Shown: positions 1-62,607 of the stretch, piece by piece
How positions within the stretch are numbered: the first letter of the stretch is position 1
Layout: each line of letters opens with the position of its first letter
Source: an uncultured Chloroflexota bacterium
Lineage (GTDB): Bacteria > Chloroflexota > Anaerolineae > UBA4142 > SHND01
Direction of reading: 5' to 3'
Length of the DNA: 64,000 nt
Assembly: GCA_937870825.1 (NCBI GenBank)
Contig: CALMZO010000214.1
Coordinates: 1 to 64,000, forward strand
Made by a program: the position numbers and the translations under genes
Notes under the pieces: model-generated
What the model was told of the DNA's origin: nothing
The model's input: only the letters and a program-made list of their open reading frames with translations
Database searches by the model: none

Positions 1-2
1 TG

Positions 3-155
3 CGCGAAAAAGAGATGGAACAAATCGCGGAATTTATTTCCCAAGTACTTGTGGAAAAACGCGCGCCCGAAGATGTGGTGGAAGATGTGATTGAATTTCG
101 CAGCGCGTATCAGACGCTGTATTACAATTTTGATGATGGGATGCCGCCAAAATAG
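3..155 (+). CDS. glyA: C-terminal fragment, probably serine hydroxymethyltransferase
   Basis: The window opens inside a rightward gene; only its last 50 codons are visible, ending in TAG at 153-155. The visible part is a charged amphipathic helix (EMEQIAEFISQVL) followed by FRSAYQTLYYNFDDGMPPK. The helix resembles the C-terminal helix of GlyA (E-M-x-x-I-A-x-x-I), the PLP enzyme that converts serine plus tetrahydrofolate to glycine and methylene-tetrahydrofolate. This would fit the nearby purine genes, which consume glycine and formyl-folate. The assignment is an inference from a short tail; another PLP enzyme is possible. A hairpin terminator follows directly. Confidence 0.45.
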   Translation, partial: REKEMEQIAEFISQVLVEKRAPEDVVEDVIEFRSAYQTLYYNFDDGMPPK

Positions 156-192: not shown

Positions 193-504
193 TTACGAAA
201 TTTTGCGCTGCATCAAAATCAGTTTGCGAATGGCGTGGCTCAGGGATTTATCAAGTTTGCGGAGATAGGCGGCATCGGCTTGGTGCAAGGTAATTGTGTG
301 GCGTTTCAGCTTGACGCGCTTTGTTTCACGCGACGCCAGAGTTGTTTTGCCATTGGCAGCAACACGCTTTTTCACGCGGCGCGTGGCGTTCGCGTTTTGC
401 CCAAAAGGGTTTGGCTTGGATTTACGATAGTCGAAATCGTAATGCGGTTTCAACTCATAGTCGTCGAGTTCAGGAATGTATTCAGTCAGTCTCACGTTCT
501 TCAT
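193..504 (-). CDS. Ribbon-helix-helix antitoxin-like protein (BrnA-type position)
   Basis: A 103-residue basic protein. The start at 504 is chosen because a GGGAG motif lies about 10 bases upstream and the longer reading frame has no better signal. The N-terminal part has the KPHYDFDYRKSKPNPF pattern common in small antitoxins. The C-terminal part (HTITLHQADAAYLRKLDKSLSHAIRKLI) looks like a ribbon-helix-helix segment that binds DNA and neutralises a toxin. Its start overlaps by 23 bases the end of a truncated BrnT-like toxin, the usual BrnT-BrnA order. An antitoxin outliving a broken toxin may protect against related toxins or simply be decaying. Family naming is inference from motifs. Confidence 0.55.
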   Translation of the reverse strand: MKNVRLTEYIPELDDYELKPHYDFDYRKSKPNPFGQNANATRRVKKRVAANGKTTLASRETKRVKLKRHTITLHQADAAYLRKLDKSLSHAIRKLILMQRKIS

Positions 505-634
505 AATTCTTGCGCTCCCCTCTGTCCGCTTTGCGCGCACTGATAATACGGATGGTACGCAGAAAACGCCAGACGAAAGAAACAATCAACAATCGTTTTC
601 GATTCGAGTAGCCAAGTACTTTCCCGTCCGGCAT
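482..634 (-). pseudogene. Truncated BrnT-like toxin remnant
   Basis: The leftward frame ending at 482 encodes GYSNRKRLLIVSFVW, then a stretch with RIISARKADRGERKNYEE. This matches the C-terminal half of BrnT toxins (RNase-fold, about 90 residues), whose hallmark is R-I-I-S-A-R-K-A followed by R-x-E-R-x-x-Y-E. The N-terminal half, including the first beta strand and most of the catalytic core, is absent: upstream the frame runs into the end of the SIR2-like gene without similarity. The ATG at 634 is incidental. The remnant overlaps the antitoxin start by 23 bases, so the original toxin-antitoxin order is preserved. The module probably lost its toxin when the SIR2-like gene was joined to it. 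Confidence 0.6.
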
Positions 635-663
635 AATGTGTAGATACGGAATCGCGAATATGA

Positions 664-1674
664 CTATCGGTATGTGTTGACAAAATTTACAAACCCATCT
701 CCAAATATTTGCCCCCTTTGCAGCGTTGACCAGCCAAGAACTGAAGTCATTATTTCCTCAGCACCACTTTGACTCCTATCAACAACATGAAGTGTAGTTC
801 CTTGGGGGACAACGCTCAACAACTCTTTGATTATTTCATCATTGGCGCGATAGCCAATCATGTAAATCTCATCTGCCTGCCTCAGCCAATCTTTTCCTGA
901 GCTGATTACTGAATTTGCGAAGGTGTCCACCGTATCATACTGTTTAGATGTTAGCGGCATGAATATCAGCGGATAACAATACCCTAAATTATCTATCAAA
1001 TAACTCAAATTGCCCAGTCGCGGGCTGTCTGGAGGGTAGATTTCAACGCGGGCCATTTGGTGTTGCTCATCCTGAAACATATGCTCCTTCGCCAAGAGTA
1101 GCCTTTGAGCATACTCGAAGGAGTTGTTGCGAATGTCAGGATCCGAAATCCTTTTTGGGAGTATCCAGTTAATTGAGCCATGGGGTTTGATCAAACCGAA
1201 TTTTTGGTAACTTGCTAGAGTGGTCAATGAAGTTTCAAAAACCCCCTGGACTGCGCGATCTAGCAAGGTATCATAGTTAAACGAAATCAACGCGAAGTTC
1301 TCATTGGCTTGGAGTAATTTTTTCAACAATGCTTGATATCCATGTGCGGGACGCGTGCCATTGGTAACATGAGTCAGGAGATTCCAAAGAAAAAACGCAA
1401 TCCCTGCGAAGAATGCTTTTTCAGCAGCAACGTTTTTCGGTGACAATTGTGCAATGTTCTCCCATCGCTCTGTCAACCATTCTTCAAATCTACCTGACGC
1501 GGCTCCTTCTTGACACTGCTTAAACTGATCTGCGGTGAGAATCCCATCTGCATATGTTTGATAGCGGTTATCAAACAATTCATTTATCAATGGAGCAATA
1601 CTTTCTGGACGAAGCGGTTCTAACAATTCTTGGGCACCCTTTGACGCACCCGCACCAAAAATGAAAGCCTTCAT
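664..1674 (-). CDS. SIR2-like domain protein, candidate defence NADase
   Basis: A 336-residue protein with a Rossmann-like start, FIFGAGAS (residues 5-11), then SFNYDTLLDRAV with Asn133 and KPHGSINW with His165. These three elements match the SIR2-like family in which Asn and His form the NAD-hydrolysing site; the family is common in antiphage systems. No deacetylase zinc cysteines are seen. It ends with a GYRANDEIIKELL helix typical of the family. The start has AAGGA eleven bases upstream. It is the only large gene of the island downstream of guaB and has no obvious partner except toxin-antitoxin genes. Defence is inferred from family and context; an orphan metabolic SIR2-like protein is the alternative. 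Confidence 0.7.
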   Translation of the reverse strand: MKAFIFGAGASKGAQELLEPLRPESIAPLINELFDNRYQTYADGILTADQFKQCQEGAASGRFEEWLTERWENIAQLSPKNVAAEKAFFAGIAFFLWNLLTHVTNGTRPAHGYQALLKKLLQANENFALISFNYDTLLDRAVQGVFETSLTTLASYQKFGLIKPHGSINWILPKRISDPDIRNNSFEYAQRLLLAKEHMFQDEQHQMARVEIYPPDSPRLGNLSYLIDNLGYCYPLIFMPLTSKQYDTVDTFANSVISSGKDWLRQADEIYMIGYRANDEIIKELLSVVPQGTTLHVVDRSQSGAEEIMTSVLGWSTLQRGQIFGDGFVNFVNTYR

Positions 1675-1847
1675 TAGTTGTTCCTTGTTGGCTGAAGTGA
1701 ATAAAGTACACGCAAAAGCATCCCGGCGCTTTCAAAAGTGCTCGAATCCTAACTCGTGCGATTTGTCAAAGTGAAGGACAAATTATCTCCTTTGACTTTC
1801 TCTAATTCGTGCAAATTGCGCCAAGAGTCACGTTGTCCTGCTCGCGC

Positions 1848-1935
1848 CTAACAATTCAGCACTTCACGCATAATCATCACATCGTGCGGATGCGATTCGA
1901 ACAAGCCCGCGTTTGTGATGCGGCGCAATCCCCTC
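1848..1935 (-). repeat. Decayed copy of the guaB 3' end (copy 3)
   Basis: Read leftwards, this stretch encodes [17 protein letters not shown] and then MIMREVLNC with a stop at 1848. This is recognisably the C-terminus of the GuaB encoded at 3360-4844 ([17 protein letters not shown], then [10 protein letters not shown]), with several substitutions. It begins directly after the stop codon of the unknown gene at 1934-2326. It is the most diverged and most distal of three copies, which suggests the oldest insertion event. Confidence 0.85.
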
Positions 1936-2326
1936 AAAACTTTAGTCCTTGCGCTTCCTCGCGCAAGCGGCGTATCTCATCCTCCGACTCTTGTTTCTGT
2001 TGTGCTTTGAGCGCCAACTCGGTTGCGATTTTTTCCTTTGCCGCGTCGTACTTATGATTCACTTCGGCAACCAATTCTTTTTGCAAGTCCAACTGCTGCT
2101 GCTTGTTATCCTCCGCGCTCATTTCGACAAGAATTGTATCGTCCAAAATGGTAGAGCGACGACGCACACTGCCCGTCGCGGCAGTCTTGACGGTTTGTTC
2201 GTACAACAACTTCCAATCGTACTCGGGCAATTCCGACAGCCGAAAACTGTAGCGGAACAATTTCGTATTGGGAATGGGGTCAACACTATTTCCGTTCATG
2301 CCGACAATTTGAATGTTTGATGCCAT
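1934..2326 (-). CDS. Unknown protein with C-terminal coiled coil
   Basis: A 130-residue protein I do not recognise. Residues 1-75 look like a compact domain (SVDPIPNTKLFRYSFRLSEL, then PEYDWKLLYEQ), with a basic RRRS patch near 55. From about residue 76 a Lys/Glu/Gln-rich helix runs to the end with heptad-like spacing, so a coiled coil is likely. A GGAGG motif lies just upstream of the ATG. It sits alone between two copies of the guaB 3' end and so forms its own insertion module. No signal peptide or membrane segment is seen. A role in defence or stress is suggested only by context. Confidence 0.6.
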   Translation of the reverse strand: MASNIQIVGMNGNSVDPIPNTKLFRYSFRLSELPEYDWKLLYEQTVKTAATGSVRRRSTILDDTILVEMSAEDNKQQQLDLQKELVAEVNHKYDAAKEKIATELALKAQQKQESEDEIRRLREEAQGLKF

Positions 2327-2405
2327 CCTAACCTCCGTAAATCAAGTGACCAAGACGCGAGAACCATTATCGCATGTAATGGACTTGGGCAAAAGATTCG
2401 TTTGA

Positions 2406-2438
2406 TAAAAAAAAACCGTTCATCTCGCTGATGAACGG
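2406..2438 (-). terminator. Intrinsic terminator downstream of guaB 3'-end copy 2
   Basis: CCGTTCATC (2416-2424) and GATGAACGG (2430-2438) form a perfect 9-bp stem with a 5-base loop. On the minus strand it is followed by nine T. It lies about 55 bases after the stop of the second guaB 3'-end copy, so it may be the original guaB terminator, now displaced from guaB by inserted genes. Confidence 0.85.
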
Positions 2439-2492
2439 ACTTGTATTTCATCTACGCCGCGATTCGTCATTCGGCGCGCATTCTATTCAAAA

Positions 2493-2960
<468 letters not shown>

Positions 2961-2964
<4 letters not shown>

Positions 2965-3278
2965 GGATACTGCTCCTCAATCAGCTTGCGTAGAGCATTG
3001 AGTTGGGCGCGTGAAAGGTCATCGCGCTGATTTTTGGGATACATAAACAACAGCAAAAGTTGTTTTTGTTTCACTGCCCAATAATAAATTACCCGAACCC
3101 CGCCGCGCTTGCCCTTGCCTCTAATTCCCCAGCGCACCTTTCGCAAACCACCACTCCCAACAATCACCGAACCGATTTCGGGACGCTCCGCTAAAAGTTC
3201 CTGTAGATCTCGATACTCCTCATCGGAAAGTAACGCAAGAACTTGGCGCGTAAAAAAGGACGTTTCGATGATAACCAT
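2961..3278 (-). CDS. RelE/HigB-type mRNA-interferase toxin
   Basis: A 105-residue protein starting MVIIETSFFTRQVLALLSDE. Its core has GSGGLRKVRW, then KRGGVRVIYYW and the LLLLFMYPKNQRDDLS strand-helix, typical of RelE/ParE-superfamily toxins that cleave mRNA, usually on the ribosome. The start at 3278 is preferred to an in-frame ATG at 3320 because the latter lies inside the palindromic operator and adds residues foreign to the family. It is the first gene of a toxin-first pair, the order usual for HigBA and NadTS types. The operon sits directly behind guaB. Confidence 0.82.
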
Positions 3279-3308
3279 TTTGATTGCGTAGCGCGCGGTT
3301 GTGCAGTC

Positions 3309-3331
3309 ACTATACGCCATTGGCGTATAGT
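3309..3331. promoter_or_regulatory. Perfect 23-bp palindrome, probable antitoxin operator
   Basis: ACTATACGCCA and TGGCGTATAGT are exact reverse complements separated by a single T. The site ends 31 bases before the toxin start, where an autoregulating XRE antitoxin dimer would bind. It occurs once in the window as far as I can see. A second small hairpin (TCGCTC/GAGCGA, about 3339-3354) lies between it and the guaB stop codon. Confidence 0.75.
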
Positions 3332-3359
3332 TGTCAATTCGCTCCTCGAGCGAGTTGTT

Positions 3360-4844
3360 TTACACCGCCCGCGACTGATAGTTCGGCGCTTCGCGCGTAA
3401 TCGTCACATCGTGCGGATGCGATTCGACAAGCCCTGCGTTCGTGATGCGACGCAGTTTTGTTCTCATGCGCAAATCTTTAAGGTGCATAGCGCCCGCATA
3501 ACCCATCCCTGAACGCAAACCGCCGACGAGTTGGTAAATGTAATCGTGCGCGGTGCCGCGATACGGGACCATTCCTTCAATGCCTTCGGGGACAAGTTTC
3601 CCCGAACCATTTTGTCCCGACGCGTAACGGTCTGCGGCGAAACGATTCGACATTGCGCCCATTGAACCCATGCCGCGATACATTTTGAATTGACGCCCTT
3701 CGTACAAAACCAATTCGCCCGGCGATTCTTCCAAACCTGCGAGCAAACTGCCGAGCATCACCGCGTCCGCGCCCGCCACAATCGCTTTCACAATATCGCC
3801 GCTGTATTTGACGCCGCCATCCGCAATAATTGTCGCGCCGCGTTTGTGCGCCGCGCGCGCGCATTCCCAAATCGCAGTCATCTGCGGCATCCCCGCGCCC
3901 GAAATCACGCGCGTCGTGCAAATCGAACCCGCGCCGACGCCCACTTTTAAAACATCCGCGCCCGCGTCAAGCAAAAGATTCACGCCTTCTTCCGTCACCA
4001 CATTTCCCGCAATCACTTGCGCGCCGCGCCAATTTTGTTTGATGCGTTTGATGGCATTCACCACGCCCGCCGAATGCCCGTGCGCGGTGTCCACGACAAG
4101 CACATCAACGCCTTTTTCGAGCAGCAACTCGACGCGCGTTTCCAAATCCGCGCCGACGCCCACCGCCGCGCCCGCGAGCAGCCGTCCGCGCGAATCAACA
4201 GCCGCGTGCGGATAATCGCGTTTCTTTTGAATATCCTTGACCGTGATGAGTCCCTTCAACACCCCCCCCTCATCCACGAGCGGCAATTTTTCGATGCGAT
4301 ATTTTTGTAAAATCGTTTTCGCTTCGTCGAGCGTTGTGCCGACGTGACTCGTCACCAAATTTTCGCGCGTCATGAAATCGCTGACGGGACGCGACAAATC
4401 GGACGGCTCGACAAAACGCGTATCGCGATTTGTGAGAATACCGACGAGTTTATTTCCATTTTCTGTAATCGGCACGCCGCTGATGCGATAACGCGCCATC
4501 AACGCTTCCGCATCGCGCAGCGTCGCGTCAGGCGCAAGCGTAATCGGGTCCACAATCATTCCCGATTCGGAACGCTTCACTTTTTCCACTTCGTCCGCTT
4601 GGGCTTCGGGCGAGAGATTGCGATGCAAAATTCCGAGTCCGCCTTCGCGCGCCAACGCAATCGCCATGCGCGCTTCCGTCACCGTATCCATCGCGGCGGA
4701 CAATAACGGAATGTTCAAACACAATGTATCCGTCAAACGCGTTTGCGTATTTGTTTGGTCGGGCAGCACTTCGGTATAGCCCGGCACAATCAGCAAATCG
4801 TCGAACGTCAACGCGTCGAGTTGTTGAAAAATTTCGTCGTTCAT
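3360..4844 (-). CDS. guaB: Inosine-5'-monophosphate dehydrogenase
   Basis: A 494-residue enzyme that oxidises IMP to XMP with NAD, the committed step to GMP. The catalytic loop GAGSICTTR carries Cys309. [14 protein letters not shown], the VVDTAHGHS phosphate region and the [12 protein letters not shown] loop are present. Two CBS domains (about residues 95-205) are inserted in the barrel. [11 protein letters not shown] and the C-terminal K-site region are intact. It is last in the purine operon after purH, separated by a 72-base repeat hairpin. An unusual run of eight C (plus strand, 4262-4269) encodes EGG in the second CBS domain. The final residues (RAV) differ from the displaced copy (RSA) at 2493, so the present gene end may have arrived with an insertion. 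Confidence 0.97.
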
Positions 4845-6563: not shown

Positions 6564-7149
6564 TGACGTCCACCTCAAAGAATTGTTGTAGTGTGCTGAC
6601 CAACAAACGATGTTCCACTCGATGCACGCGCGCTTCCAAACTTTCGAGCGTGTCATTTTTTTCAATCGGCACAATTTCTTGCGCGAGCACGGGACCATTG
6701 TCCACGCCTTCGTCGGGAACGAGATGCACCATGACGCCCGTGTATGAAATCTCGCCGCGTTGAAAAGATTCATACGCGCGTTCAATCGCATGTGTACCGG
6801 GGAATGTGCCGGACAGCGCCGGATGCAAATTGATGACGCGATTCGGAAATGTATCCAGAAACGCGGATGACAAAATTCGCATCCAACCTGCGAGGATTAC
6901 AAAATCGGGTTCATATTGTGAAACAAGTTCCGCGAGTTCCGCATCATACGCGCGGCGTTCTTGTGAGTGAATTTTTGCTTTCCAAATCGCGTGAACATTC
7001 GCACGTCGCGCCCGCGTCAACCCGAACGCATCCGCTTTGTTGGAAATCACGGCGACGACGCGCGCATTCAGTTCTCCGCGTTCGCACGCGTCGAGAATCG
7101 CTTGCAGGTTTGAACCGTTGCCGGAAATGAGGATGACGAGACGTTTCAT
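6556..7149 (-). CDS. purN: Phosphoribosylglycinamide formyltransferase
   Basis: A 197-residue enzyme that transfers a formyl group from 10-formyl-THF to GAR. It starts with the phosphate loop ISGNGSNLQAIL. The catalytic triad is visible as Asn and His in INLHPALSGTFPG and Asp in LVPDEGVDNGPV. ILAGWMRIL is also typical. Length fits the monofunctional bacterial enzyme. It overlaps purH by 8 bases and follows purM with a 47-base spacer of heptad-like repeats. It acts directly after PurD in the pathway. Confidence 0.96.
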   Translation of the reverse strand: MKRLVILISGNGSNLQAILDACERGELNARVVAVISNKADAFGLTRARRANVHAIWKAKIHSQERRAYDAELAELVSQYEPDFVILAGWMRILSSAFLDTFPNRVINLHPALSGTFPGTHAIERAYESFQRGEISYTGVMVHLVPDEGVDNGPVLAQEIVPIEKNDTLESLEARVHRVEHRLLVSTLQQFFEVDVNA

Positions 7150-58754: not shown

Positions 58755-60314
58755 ATGGATTCAGTAAACGGTGTTCCACCCAGCGGGATCGTCACATTTC
58801 TCTTTACCGATATTGAAGGCAGCACCGCGCTGTGGGAAAAAATGCCCGAAGCCATGAAGCGCGCACTCGCCCAGCACGACCAAATTTTGCATCTCGCGAT
58901 TGCCAAGCATAACGGTTACGCGTTCAAACAAATCGGCGATGCCTTTCAAGCCGCGTTCGTCGCACCGTCCGACGCGTTAAATACCGCGATTGATGCCCAA
59001 CGCGCCTTGCGCGACGCGACCTGGGGCGAAACGGGCGCGCTGCGCGTCCGCATGGGCATTCACACCGGACCCGAAGAGTGGCTCGGCACCGATTACGCGG
59101 TGAGTCACACGCTGAACCGCGTGGCGCGCATCATGTCGGCGGGACACGGCGGCGAAATTTTGGTGTCAAGCGAGACGGTTGAAAATGTGAACGGCACGAT
59201 GCCGCAGGACGCGAATTTGCGCGACTTGGGCAAACATCGGCTCAAAGGGCTGAAAATTCCCGAACATATTTTTCAACTCGTCGTTCCTGATTTGCCAGCC
59301 GAATTTCCGCCGCTGAATGTCTTGGATTCGTACAACGCGCATTTTGAAACCGTCGCGCGCAACCTTGCTGAAAATCGCGTCGTGCCGTTTTTAGGCGGCA
59401 CTGTGAATTTGGTCGGACGCCCAACCGACAGACCGTGGCGCTTTGGCGAATCGGATTTTTTGCCCGTCGGTGTGGAACTTGCCGAACATCTCGCGCGCCT
59501 CTTTGATTATCCTGCGAATGAACCGCGTGACCTCGTGCGCGTTTCGCAATTCGCTGCCGTGAAAGCGGGCATCGGTCCCCTGTACGACGAACTGCGCAAA
59601 GTGTTCAAAGCCGAATATCCGCCGACGCCGCTGCACATGTTTTTTGCAATGCTGCCGCGTCTTTTGCGCGAGCGCGGTTTTCCGCCCGAACTGATGGTTG
59701 TAACCACGAATTACGATGACGCCTTGGAACGCGCGTTTCGCGCAATGAACGAACCGTTTGATTTGGTCACGTACATTGCCGAAGGCGATGCGCGCGGAAA
59801 ATTTATGCACACGTCCCCTGACGGCAAAGCGCGCCCGATTGACAAACCAAACAAGTATCTTGGACTGAATCCCGAAGAACGCACGACCATTCTAAAAATT
59901 CACGGCGTCGTGGACCGCAACAATCGCGCGCGCGACAGTTACGTCATCACCGAAGACCATTACATTGATTATCTCGCGCACAAAGACATTGCCCAACAAT
60001 TGCCCGCGCAACTTTTGGAGCGCATGAGCTGGAGTCACTTTTTATTTCTGGGCTACAGCTTGCGCGACTGGAATTTGCGCGTGATTTTGCATCGCATCTG
60101 GGGCGAACAAAAATTTAAATACAAAGCGTGGGCGGTGTCCGATACGAATGTGTTGGGCGAAAAGCCGCAGCCGCTCGAACAAGAATTTTGGCGACTGCGC
60201 GATGTGGACATTATCAAAATGCCGCTCGACGATTACGTCGAATCCTTGCAAGAACGTGTCGAGCATTTAACGCAGGGCATTGCCGTGAGCTCACCTGAAC
60301 GGGGGGGGGAATAG
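58755..60314 (+). CDS. Class III nucleotide cyclase fused to SIR2-like domain
   Basis: A 519-residue two-domain protein. Residues 10-175 are a class III cyclase: TFLFTDIEGSTALW with metal Asp19, FKQIGDAFQAAF with Asp62, and LNRVARIMSAGHGGEILVSS with transition-state Asn121 and Arg125. It should make cAMP or cGMP; specificity is not clear. Residues about 205-480 are SIR2-like: VVPFLGG, VVTTNYDDALERAF (Asn319), ILKIHGVVD (His383), FLFLGYSLRDWNLRVIL. The catalytic Asn and His of NAD-hydrolysing SIR2-like proteins are retained. The last codons lie in a run of nine G; the stop is one base before the STAND gene. The cyclase-SIR2 fusion is unusual and suggests NAD- or infection-linked signalling. 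Confidence 0.87.
   Translation: MDSVNGVPPSGIVTFLFTDIEGSTALWEKMPEAMKRALAQHDQILHLAIAKHNGYAFKQIGDAFQAAFVAPSDALNTAIDAQRALRDATWGETGALRVRMGIHTGPEEWLGTDYAVSHTLNRVARIMSAGHGGEILVSSETVENVNGTMPQDANLRDLGKHRLKGLKIPEHIFQLVVPDLPAEFPPLNVLDSYNAHFETVARNLAENRVVPFLGGTVNLVGRPTDRPWRFGESDFLPVGVELAEHLARLFDYPANEPRDLVRVSQFAAVKAGIGPLYDELRKVFKAEYPPTPLHMFFAMLPRLLRERGFPPELMVVTTNYDDALERAFRAMNEPFDLVTYIAEGDARGKFMHTSPDGKARPIDKPNKYLGLNPEERTTILKIHGVVDRNNRARDSYVITEDHYIDYLAHKDIAQQLPAQLLERMSWSHFLFLGYSLRDWNLRVILHRIWGEQKFKYKAWAVSDTNVLGEKPQPLEQEFWRLRDVDIIKMPLDDYVESLQERVEHLTQGIAVSSPERGGE
60301..60309 (+). repeat. G9 tract at the cyclase-STAND junction
   Basis: Nine consecutive G encode Arg-Gly-Gly-Glu just before the TAG at 60312. 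The next gene begins at 60316 in the adjacent frame. With eight G, the reading frame passes the stop and runs into the ATG of the STAND gene in frame, giving a single polypeptide of about 1,280 residues. Confidence 0.85.
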
Positions 60315-60315
60315 A

Positions 60316-62607
60316 ATGAGTTCTCCTCCCAACGGCGCAGGAAACATGGACACGCGCAAAATTCCGCCCGCGCCGTACAAAGGTCTCGTCCCGTACACCG
60401 ACGACGATGCCGCGCTCTTTTTTGGACGCGATGCGGAACGCTCCATCATCGTCGCGAATCTGCGCTCATCGCGTTTTACGTTGTTGTACGGACCAAGCGG
60501 CGTCGGCAAAAGTTCCGTCGTCGGCGCGGGGGTCGTGCATTTTCTTCGCCAACGCGCAAAACAAAACATCGCCAAACGCGGCACGCCGGAATTCGCGGTG
60601 ATTTATTTCAATCAGTGGCGCGATGACCCGGTGGTTGGACTCGTACGCACGGTGCGCGAAGAAGTTGAAAAACTTGTAGGCAAGACGTTTGACGACCCGC
60701 AGACAACGCGTTTCAAAACCCTCGACGAACAACTAAAAATGTGGGCAGAGCGCGTCGGCGGCGACTTGCTCATCCTCCTCGACCAATTCGAAGATTATTT
60801 TTTGTATCATGCGAACGAAGACGGACCCGGCACATTCGTCGAAGAATTTCCGCGCGTCGTAACGGACAAGGATGCGCGCGTCAATTTTGTCGTTTCCATT
60901 CGCGAAGACGCGGTTGCCAAGCTCGACCGCTTTGAAGGGCGCATTCCCACACTCTTTGACAATTACATTCGCGTGGACCATCTCGACCGCAGTGCCGCGT
61001 GCGACGCGATTATCAAACCCATCGAACAGTACAACAAAGCGATAGGCGACCCCGCGCTGAAAGTGAGCATCGAACCCGCGTTGGTGGATGCGGTCCTCGA
61101 CCAGGTCAAAACCGGACGCGTCTCGCTGACCGAAACGGGACTCGGCGCGATCAAAAACGAACACAGTGAGAATGGACACGAATCGAATGTCGAACGCATC
61201 GAAACGCCGTTTTTGCAATTGGTGATGACGCGGTTGTGGGATGAAGAATTACGCGGTGGTTCGCATGTGTTGCGTTCGGAAACGCTGAATCGGTTGGGCG
61301 GCGCGGAACGCATTGTGCGTACCCATTTGGACAAAACGCTCGGCGGTTTGCCTGCCGTGGAACGGCAAGCCGCCGCAGGAATGTTTCACTATCTCGTCAC
61401 GCCGTCGGGCACAAAAATCGCGCACACCGCGCGCGACCTCGCAGAATATACGCGCACGAATGAAAAGCAGCTCGTCCCCGTTTTGGAAAAAATGTCCGCG
61501 TCCGGCATTCGCATTTTGCGTCCCGTCGCCCCCCCCCCCGACCAACTGGACGCGCCGACGCGGTACGAAATTTTCCATGATGTGCTTGCGCCCGCGATGC
61601 TCGATTGGCGGCGCCGCTATTTGCAGCAGCGGCGCACGCGGTTAATTGGGTTTGGAGTGGGCGCGGCGGCGTTCGCGGTCTTGTTGATTATCGGCGCGTT
61701 ATGGTTCAACTTGCAGCGCAGTCAACAGCAATTGACGCAAAAAGCGCAAGAGGCAGAAAATTTATCGCAAGCCATTTTGTCCGCGCCCCAGCCGACAGGT
61801 TCCGTAACGCTGCCGCCAACGCTCGTCGCGATTCGTGAAACGGCGGCGGCAGTAGGAACCAGTGCGGCGGCGGTCACTTGTCAGGGCGCGCCGGACATTG
61901 CCTTCAGCGTTTCCAAAAATAATATCGCGCCGCGTGACCCGGTCATTTTGCAGTGGGGCAGAACGCAGCGCGTAACGGGCGTGACGATTGAACCCGGTTT
62001 GGGCAAGGTGAATGTGGAAGGTTCGCATGCTGTTCAGCCGTTGCAGACGACGACGTACACCTTGACGGCAGAGGGATGTGGCGGCAAGATTACGCGTCAA
62101 GTGACCATTAACGTCATTCCGGCAACGGGAACTTTGACTGCGATTCCAGCGACGGCGACGAACGTGCCTCCTACTGCGACATTGCCGCCTCCCACCGCGA
62201 CGCGTGTGCCGTTCACACCAACGACGGCGGCATCTCCGACGTTGAACGTGCCGCCGGGAGTGTATGTGACACGACTGCGCGTCGAACCTGCTGCTCCGCG
62301 TTCAGGTGACGAAATCACGTTCTCTGCGACAATTCTGAATACGATTGGTTCAACGCAAGAGTATGATTATTGTGTCGAGCTCTTCAAGCCGGAGAATGTG
62401 GGACGTTCCGTCGGCATCACAACGTGCCGCCAGCAAAAAATCGAACCGGGCGAAAGTGTAATCACGGCGACGGGGTGGAATGTGCGCGAGGGCGCATGTA
62501 CGCAGTATCTCGCGCGTCCGATTTGGCAAGACGGCGCAAAAGCGCGCACGGCGTTTTTGTCAACGGATGGGAATATCCCATGGCTGCCGTTTGATGTGTG
62601 TCCGTAA
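60316..62607 (+). CDS. Membrane-anchored nSTAND-type NTPase with extracellular domains
   Basis: A 763-residue protein. PYKGLVPYTDDDAALFFGRD opens the nSTAND1-type NTPase; Walker A is GPSGVGKSS (Lys65) and Walker B LLILLDQFED (Asp156). A helical winged region follows (to about 435; YEIFHDVLAPAMLDWRRRYL is the usual closing motif). One membrane helix spans about 443-466. Outside lie an Ig-like domain (about 500-605), a Thr/Pro linker and a CARDB-like domain (about 650-763). Eleven C (61529-61539) encode APPP before the membrane helix, a slippage-prone tract. It lies one base behind the cyclase-SIR2 gene and probably controls it (inference). Confidence 0.87.
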   Translation: MSSPPNGAGNMDTRKIPPAPYKGLVPYTDDDAALFFGRDAERSIIVANLRSSRFTLLYGPSGVGKSSVVGAGVVHFLRQRAKQNIAKRGTPEFAVIYFNQWRDDPVVGLVRTVREEVEKLVGKTFDDPQTTRFKTLDEQLKMWAERVGGDLLILLDQFEDYFLYHANEDGPGTFVEEFPRVVTDKDARVNFVVSIREDAVAKLDRFEGRIPTLFDNYIRVDHLDRSAACDAIIKPIEQYNKAIGDPALKVSIEPALVDAVLDQVKTGRVSLTETGLGAIKNEHSENGHESNVERIETPFLQLVMTRLWDEELRGGSHVLRSETLNRLGGAERIVRTHLDKTLGGLPAVERQAAAGMFHYLVTPSGTKIAHTARDLAEYTRTNEKQLVPVLEKMSASGIRILRPVAPPPDQLDAPTRYEIFHDVLAPAMLDWRRRYLQQRRTRLIGFGVGAAAFAVLLIIGALWFNLQRSQQQLTQKAQEAENLSQAILSAPQPTGSVTLPPTLVAIRETAAAVGTSAAAVTCQGAPDIAFSVSKNNIAPRDPVILQWGRTQRVTGVTIEPGLGKVNVEGSHAVQPLQTTTYTLTAEGCGGKITRQVTINVIPATGTLTAIPATATNVPPTATLPPPTATRVPFTPTTAASPTLNVPPGVYVTRLRVEPAAPRSGDEITFSATILNTIGSTQEYDYCVELFKPENVGRSVGITTCRQQKIEPGESVITATGWNVREGACTQYLARPIWQDGAKARTAFLSTDGNIPWLPFDVCP

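Follow-up and report, generated by a model that had tools for sequence, protein, structure and literature searches.

The window analyzed here is a 64,000-nucleotide stretch of DNA from an uncultured Chloroflexota bacterium of the class Anaerolineae. Its first base is also the first base of the contig, and the gene of interest, which encodes a SIR2-like protein, lies near this contig edge, flanked by two native regions: the 3' end of a serine hydroxymethyltransferase-type (SHMT) gene and, on its other side, guaB. The features of the region are as follows (G004 and G005 are two of five congeneric genomes).

1 to 155, plus strand: 3' end of the SHMT gene, native to the genus, at the contig edge (80% DNA identity to G004)
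193 to 660, minus strand: BrnA-like open reading frame and a truncated, frameshifted BrnT-like remnant, both recognized by eye
664 to 1674, minus strand: stand-alone SIR2_2-type protein gene, 336 aa, intact, with predicted catalytic residues N133 and H165
1840 to 1929, minus strand: degraded guaB 3'-end copy carrying a frameshift and a premature stop (84% over 86 nt, E 2.4e-18)
1934 to 2326, minus strand: 130-aa open reading frame with a coiled-coil look by eye, also conserved in G005, next to a guaB copy
2503 to 2581, minus strand: another guaB 3'-end copy (95% over 79 nt, E 1.5e-29)
2593 to 2964, minus strand: HTH/Xre antitoxin-like gene (HTH_3, 40.8 bits)
2961 to 3320, minus strand: RelE-type toxin gene (PF06296, 29.6 bits, cut-off 27)
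3360 to 4844, minus strand: guaB, encoding IMP dehydrogenase, a native host gene (TIGR01302, 597 bits)

Searches against Pfam returned no match for the BrnT/BrnA-like pair at 193 to 660 and no family for the 130-aa open reading frame at 1934 to 2326 (best E 0.17). The sequence-only reading had placed the SIR2-like gene among toxin-antitoxin genes in a guaB-linked island. The linkage to guaB is borne out, as guaB ends 1.69 kb from the SIR2 gene; of the toxin-antitoxin setting, the RelE-type/HTH pair at 2593 to 3320 stands, and the BrnT/BrnA-like side (approximately 193 to 660) is reduced to a remnant seen by eye only. The estimated contamination of the genome is 5.1%. An assembly artefact as the source of the SIR2 placement was rejected on account of the native sequence on either side: identity is 80% to G004 for the SHMT 3' end and 78% to G005 for the 130-aa open reading frame with its guaB copy.

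The open reading frame at 664 to 1674 begins with ATG on the minus strand and continues for 336 aa without frameshift or interruption. The sole Pfam family that matched its product was SIR2_2 (PF13289), with a score of 19.1 bits (E 0.0015) that is below the curated cut-off of 24.5; a relative that is 37% identical to the window protein (L003) scored 27.2 bits, above this cut-off, and all five members of alignment A5 matched SIR2_2 at E <= 0.01. The SIR2 models of PADLOC matched the window protein with a best E of 7e-7, and the Aga_SIR2 model (PDLC02414) matched four of the seven members of the family defined below (best 3.7e-8). A search of the host's own genome with the SIR2_2 model alone yielded five matches, the window gene not being among them. 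Against the PDB, the window protein as a single sequence found zero sirtuins and a three-sequence profile reached a sirtuin at E 1.9 only; a five-sequence profile matched the SIR2 subunit of the SIR2-HerA complex (8w9l) at E 1.8e-5, with both motifs described below within the matched residues. The second match of the five-sequence profile, a ribosomal protein at E 0.0064, was taken for chance. A comparison of four of the proteins with PHROGs gave a best E of only 0.015.

An alignment of the seven family members contains two invariant motifs, consisting of N133-Y134-D135-T136 (NYDT) and of K163, H165-G166-S167, and W170 (K.HGS..W) in the numbering of the window protein. N133 (codon 1278 to 1276) and H165 (codon 1182 to 1180) align with N163 and H212 of the sirtuin of SIR2-HerA in the five-sequence profile alignment. 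The Asn and His of NAD-hydrolyzing members, which had been read from the single sequence, are upheld as residues conserved in 7/7 proteins. In the SIR2-HerA system of Vibrio, either N168A or H227A abolishes phage immunity (PMC11559045).

The predicted structure is in keeping with this assignment. An AlphaFold2 model built from an alignment of six sequences had a mean pLDDT of 69.5 and a pTM of 0.70, which we regard as moderate quality, and its poorly scored residues 166 to 239 as unreliable; an earlier model from two sequences (pLDDT 43.8, pTM 0.38) was discarded. The structure alignment, A9, took in two proteins from outside the seven-member family, L040 and L041. The best Foldseek match of the model, and the lone match below E 0.001, was the Escherichia coli SIR2 dodecamer (8sxx; E 7.6e-4, TM 0.47/0.42, rmsd 8.6). 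The VIA-align list was headed by PsSIR2 (8w9l; Z 13.2, rmsd 4.7, 258 residues aligned), tied with other sirtuins at Z 12 to 13 and including the SIR2/HerA complex 8wld at Z 13.0, and the sirtuin alignments covered residues 1 to 336 of the window protein. Among viral predicted structures none fell below E 0.001; the best was an unnamed protein at 4.6e-3, and ranks 2 to 4 were named sirtuins or deacylases. On the predicted model and the alignment, the protein appears to combine a sirtuin fold with the catalytic Asn and His, and we consider both the fold and the catalytic residues well supported. The prediction of a SIR2-like protein made from the letters alone thus agrees with the intact minus-strand open reading frame and with sirtuin matches by both profile and predicted fold.

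The window protein contains two cysteines and no CxxC motif, and it therefore appears to lack the four-cysteine zinc module of canonical deacylase sirtuins; CxxC was likewise sought and found in 0/7 family members. SIR2_2 proteins are described as having no zinc module, which is required for deacetylation (PMC12700824). Because the window protein has no CxxC, NADase activity is likelier than deacetylase activity.

The family has few members. Full-length relatives were found in G030 (L002, 38% identity), the one other genome of the class to carry one, and on the Parcubacteria contig VMFP01000012.1 (L003, 36 to 37%). With the host's own genome counted, the window protein was found in 2/149 related genomes and in 2/396 genomes of the class, and the genus's five remaining genomes, of which one is only 79% complete, gave no match. 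A three-sequence profile found members in 3/400 genomes of the phylum, including the host, with distant members in G516 and G447, and a five-sequence profile searched over the class of G516 found one genome in 29, namely G516 itself. Viral contigs contributed L035, found with the five-sequence profile, and L039, found with a six-sequence profile; the remaining viral-contig scans yielded no further relatives. The six-sequence profile also recovered L040, a SIR2-HerA pair, and L041, a prophage SIR2 protein of 354 aa with no HerA seen beside it, and both were left out as too distant, so that the family comprises the window gene, L002, L003, L016, L017, L035, and L039. The DNA pattern FNYDTLL(D/E) occurred in 11 stretches of the viral contigs, none of which was a SIR2 gene as judged by open reading frame length and motif. 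Plasmid and phage protein searches with the window protein gave no match; in plasmid searches with L016, L003, and L039 and phage searches with L035 and L039, the only match was a weak one, between L039 and a Halorubrum plasmid (44% coverage, E 1e-5). The SIR2 family of the window gene is rare and patchy.

The base composition of the gene also sets it apart. Its G+C content of 0.437 is the lowest of the 37 open reading frames of at least 200 aa in the window, and its GC3 is 0.43, versus 0.58 to 0.63 in guaB and four pur genes. At the six other family loci, the SIR2 gene ranked lowest in G+C at four and second lowest at one; the open reading frames of at least 150 aa with a lower G+C numbered 0/14 at L015 (the locus that holds L002), 0/15 at L003, 0/6 at L016, 1/8 at L017, 0/10 at L035, and 2/6 at L039, where the comparison set was chosen by a greedy longest-open-reading-frame rule and may include some nongenes. 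From its composition, the SIR2 gene was probably acquired horizontally, and the sporadic distribution together with the low G+C suggests that it moves as a single gene.

Other SIR2 proteins are present in the window and in the genus. At 58755 to 62607, the window encodes a second SIR2 protein, a fusion of a nucleotide cyclase domain of class III (PF00211, 57.6 bits) with SIR2_2 (78.9 bits), and a single base separates its gene from the nSTAND1 NTPase gene (143.3 bits) that comes next. This layout, as judged from the N-terminal sequence, was found at L024, L026, L027, and L032, and at L030 with an extra open reading frame between the two genes, in four congeners altogether; it resembles a conflict system that the genus has conserved. 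Four further loci (L025, L028, L029, and L033) encode SIR2_2 proteins of approximately 680 aa with an N terminus that is CHAT-like by eye, and three of the four have a STAND-like NTPase gene (by eye) downstream. Each of six genomes of the genus contains at least two SIR2_2 matches.

The surroundings of the family differ from locus to locus. Three of the seven loci have a housekeeping-gene setting: L002 lies between a ThiF-family gene (same strand, 71 nt upstream) and a methyltransferase gene, L003 adjoins a YchF GTPase gene with RecA and SSB genes (by eye) farther away, and L016 adjoins a 6-phosphogluconolactonase-type gene. Three others have a mobile or viral setting, a raw count in which two of the loci come from the viral collection that was searched. 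At L017, an HSDR_N/RAMA gene follows 383 nt downstream on the same strand, with tyrosine and serine recombinases within 5 kb; L035 lies on a phage-like contig with DnaB- and ParB-type genes; and L039 comes directly after a phage integrase (296 nt upstream, same strand). In the window, where toxin-antitoxin genes lie beside the SIR2 gene, the 130-aa open reading frame is 259 nt upstream of it on the same strand. As raw counts, these settings do not demonstrate that the homologues are enriched in defense islands, the criterion that the sequence-only reading had set. The same-strand neighbors at L002 and L017 could be cotranscribed with SIR2.

A search for conserved neighbors had been named beforehand as a check. 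It compared 250 open reading frames of at least 50 aa, in all frames and within 5 kb of the SIR2 gene (itself excluded) at the seven loci, and no partner gene recurred; at E <= 1e-3, only one pair of loci shared a neighbor, the tyrosine integrase of L017 and L039. The earlier description of the protein as standing alone without its usual partner is consistent with this result. The settings also bear on the reaction that the enzyme performs. Three relatives among housekeeping genes might point to another NAD-dependent reaction, such as ADP-ribosyl transfer, synthesis of a signal molecule, or deacylation, serving housekeeping or regulation; a sporadic distribution and a foreign base composition fit such a role poorly, the zinc-site CxxC cysteines of canonical deacylation are missing, and we consider this alternative very unlikely.

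Among the closest known systems is SIR2-HerA (Nezha, GAO_19). Its SIR2 subunit is similar in length (381 aa, compared with 336 aa), has the same Asn and His, is the sole sirtuin that the profile reached, and tops the structural list, although tied. The identity across the structural alignment is 16%, and, unlike SIR2-HerA, in which the HerA ATPase is encoded adjacently, inspection of the window and the six other family loci revealed an adjacent HerA gene at 0/7. In Vibrio, HerA is also needed for phage immunity (PMC11559045). Because the SIR2 subunit of SIR2-HerA needs HerA, a partnerless relative may be inactive or may use an unlinked partner, and the window protein could supply the NADase of a split SIR2-HerA-like system, with the ATPase partner encoded at another site in the same genome. 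The profile and structural matches named above agree with a split system, as do the unlinked DUF87/HerA-type proteins present in 4/4 family genomes tested (16 such matches in the host genome, the best being G000:C195) and a HerA_C-like gene (23.1 bits, cut-off 22) located approximately 1.5 kb from the SIR2 gene of L035 on the opposite strand. However, DUF87 matches occurred in 14/14 control genomes as well, so their presence is uninformative and neither supports nor excludes a HerA partner acting in trans; the genuine pair at L040 is directly adjacent, with SIR2 ending at 7071 and HerA (DUF87, 110.7 bits) starting at 7073; and an integrase is the lone neighbor that recurs in the family. A split system is accordingly judged improbable.

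Other immune systems share the SIR2_2 domain and differ from the window gene in architecture. DSR1 and DSR2 are single-gene systems, and DSR2 carries a large sensor part; the Dsr2 model of PADLOC is 1222 positions long. Their SIR2_2 NADase domain (PMC12700824; reviewed in PMC10952713) is common ground, but the window protein, at 336 aa, is a sirtuin domain only and has no long C-terminal sensor fused to SIR2. The Thoeris effector ThsA is likewise a SIR2_2 NADase (PMC12700824), with a SIR2-SLOG architecture and activation by a signal from ThsB (PMC11204291). The 336 aa of the window protein are filled by the sirtuin match, leaving no C-terminal SLOG domain, and no ThsB neighbor was seen; there was no TIR match among the window neighbors that were scanned, the remaining neighbors being judged by eye. 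The SIR2 protein of SPARSA is similar in that the Aga_SIR2 model matches the family, but neither a short Argonaute nor an APAZ gene was found beside SIR2 at the inspected loci, where neighbors were scanned or, for the others, judged by eye.

Two eukaryotic proteins, FAM118A and FAM118B, offer a different comparison. They form a vertebrate-specific SIR2_2 clade of small proteins that have no zinc module and carry a His in the active site (PMC12700824). The window protein resembles them in being a small SIR2_2 protein with no zinc module, and differs in lying outside a clade that is restricted to vertebrates. FAM118A and FAM118B deplete NAD when coexpressed in human cells, which requires the catalytic Asn and head-to-tail assembly (PMC12700824); a small SIR2_2 protein can thus remove NAD with no sensor fused to it. 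Among titles in the matches listed for stand-alone prokaryotic SIR2 proteins, there were only the papers cited here and one on sirtuins of acetic acid bacteria (PMC11820453).

The toxin-antitoxin genes near the SIR2 gene belong to a repetitive array at the 3' end of guaB. The repeated unit is the last ~26 codons of guaB, which recur in the window at 2503 to 2581 and, as the matching part of the other copy, at 1840 to 1925, on the strand of guaB. Three guaB ends are thus present in the window (1840 to 3452), with the RelE/HTH pair and the 130-aa open reading frame between them. The copy at 1840 to 1929 is the most degraded and also the farthest from guaB. The array occurs in two of the five congeners. 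G005 (L020, 12919 to 13963) has two guaB ends and the same 130-aa open reading frame beside a guaB copy, with 78% DNA identity over the region, and between its guaB and the copy are a PIN-domain toxin gene and a putative antitoxin gene with no Pfam match. G001 (L061, 5972 to 10789) has four guaB 3' ends on one contig, and their cargo consists of an apparently truncated relative of the G005 PIN gene (by eye), a DUF6941 gene, and another small gene that is toxin-antitoxin-like by eye and matched no toxin-antitoxin family; no guaB was found in the G001 assembly at E <= 1e-100, perhaps because that assembly lacks the gene. A single guaB end is present in each of G003 and G004, that of G004 with a PIN-domain gene beside it, and G002 has none.

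The 5' breakpoints of the copies vary. Homology begins at base 1391 or 1397 of the window's guaB for the window copies, at 1391 for the G005 copy (1369 or 1383 when measured against two other guaB genes), and at 1285, 1318, 1328, and 1374 for the four G001 copies. No integrase was recognized by eye between the guaB copies of the window, G005, or G001. Site-specific integration at guaB is therefore disfavored, and homology-anchored illegitimate recombination is the favored explanation of these sequences because the breakpoints differ and no integrase was recognized; donor DNA would enter repeatedly through guaB homology, with its far end joined illegitimately. What had been called an island is then a series of guaB 3'-end copies in decay that carry toxin-antitoxin cargo, with no integrase seen. 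Literature searches for guaB with attB or integrase, or with islands or toxin-antitoxin, brought up no such array by title among the matches listed. An earlier insertion may have brought in the 130-aa open reading frame as its cargo.

Seen from guaB, the SIR2 gene comes after the most degraded copy and is therefore either the original downstream neighbor or a separate arrival. The toxin-antitoxin genes appear to have accumulated separately, as cassettes at the guaB 3' end, and say little about SIR2, because the same accumulation is present in congeners that have no SIR2 gene of this family. This weighs on an alternative in which the SIR2 protein has no antiphage role and acts as a lone toxin or stress effector, or is a passenger that addiction-like selection maintains along with toxin-antitoxin genes. 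Its position beside such genes, next to a guaB 3'-end run that collects toxin-antitoxin modules in the genus, speaks for this alternative, but no antitoxin-like neighbor recurs in the family, G005 and G001 carry toxin-antitoxin cargo without SIR2, and no toxin-antitoxin gene was recognized by eye at the L002, L003, and L016 loci; we regard the alternative as unlikely. The gene lies among remnants, with a truncated BrnT-like gene on one side and a guaB copy carrying a frameshift on the other, which could also suggest that SIR2 is a decaying relic without function. The neighbors are frameshifted, but the SIR2 reading frame is intact over 336 codons and keeps all of the residues that are invariant in 7/7 members, which makes a relic extremely improbable.

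Judged from sequence comparison, the product of 664 to 1674 is a partnerless SIR2_2-type enzyme of an immunity-associated class, and it is probably a NADase with a presumed role in defense. The reading that we prefer, with a probability of roughly 0.55, is that of a minimal single-domain SIR2_2 NADase, acquired horizontally as a single gene, that is activated by phage and defends the cell by depleting NAD+. The enzyme would cleave NAD+ by means of N133 and H165, and it would probably stay silent, in the form of a monomer or small oligomer, until it was triggered by assembly itself or by a signal from the phage. Depletion of NAD+ would then halt phage replication with or without cell death (abortive infection). 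The gene would have arrived alone and settled between the SHMT gene and the run of cassettes at the guaB 3' end. We infer that NAD+ is hydrolyzed, that assembly or a phage signal activates the enzyme, and that its role is defense; a NADase turned on when it assembles or when infection is signaled is the likeliest reading because both Vibrio SIR2-HerA and human FAM118 provide precedents. Speaking against it, the window protein scores under the Pfam cut-off and was missed by the genome search with the SIR2_2 model, and the structure model is only moderate. Further points against it are the housekeeping rather than defense genes around the chromosomal relatives L002, L003, and L016, the dependence of SIR2-HerA on HerA, the HerA_C-like gene near L035, and the close same-strand neighbors at L002 and L017.

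A bolder extension of this reading, which is speculative and rather doubtful, is that the bare sirtuin domain acts as sensor, self-assembly switch, and NAD-destroying effector in one. The gene would then be a self-contained cassette that moves alone between phyla and on phages, found here at an integrase-free accretion site at the guaB 3' end. Cassettes, for the most part toxin-antitoxin pairs, would enter this site through guaB-anchored recombination, each supplying a fresh guaB end and turning the old one into a fossil. A bare domain that can sense infection as well as deplete NAD would rank with the smallest SIR2 defense genes. It would also be a simple prokaryotic counterpart of FAM118 and would allow one to ask how a partnerless sirtuin stays silent. 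The array at the guaB 3' end, if confirmed, would provide a readable record of how small cassettes for defense and toxin-antitoxin functions build up next to an essential gene with no integrase involved.
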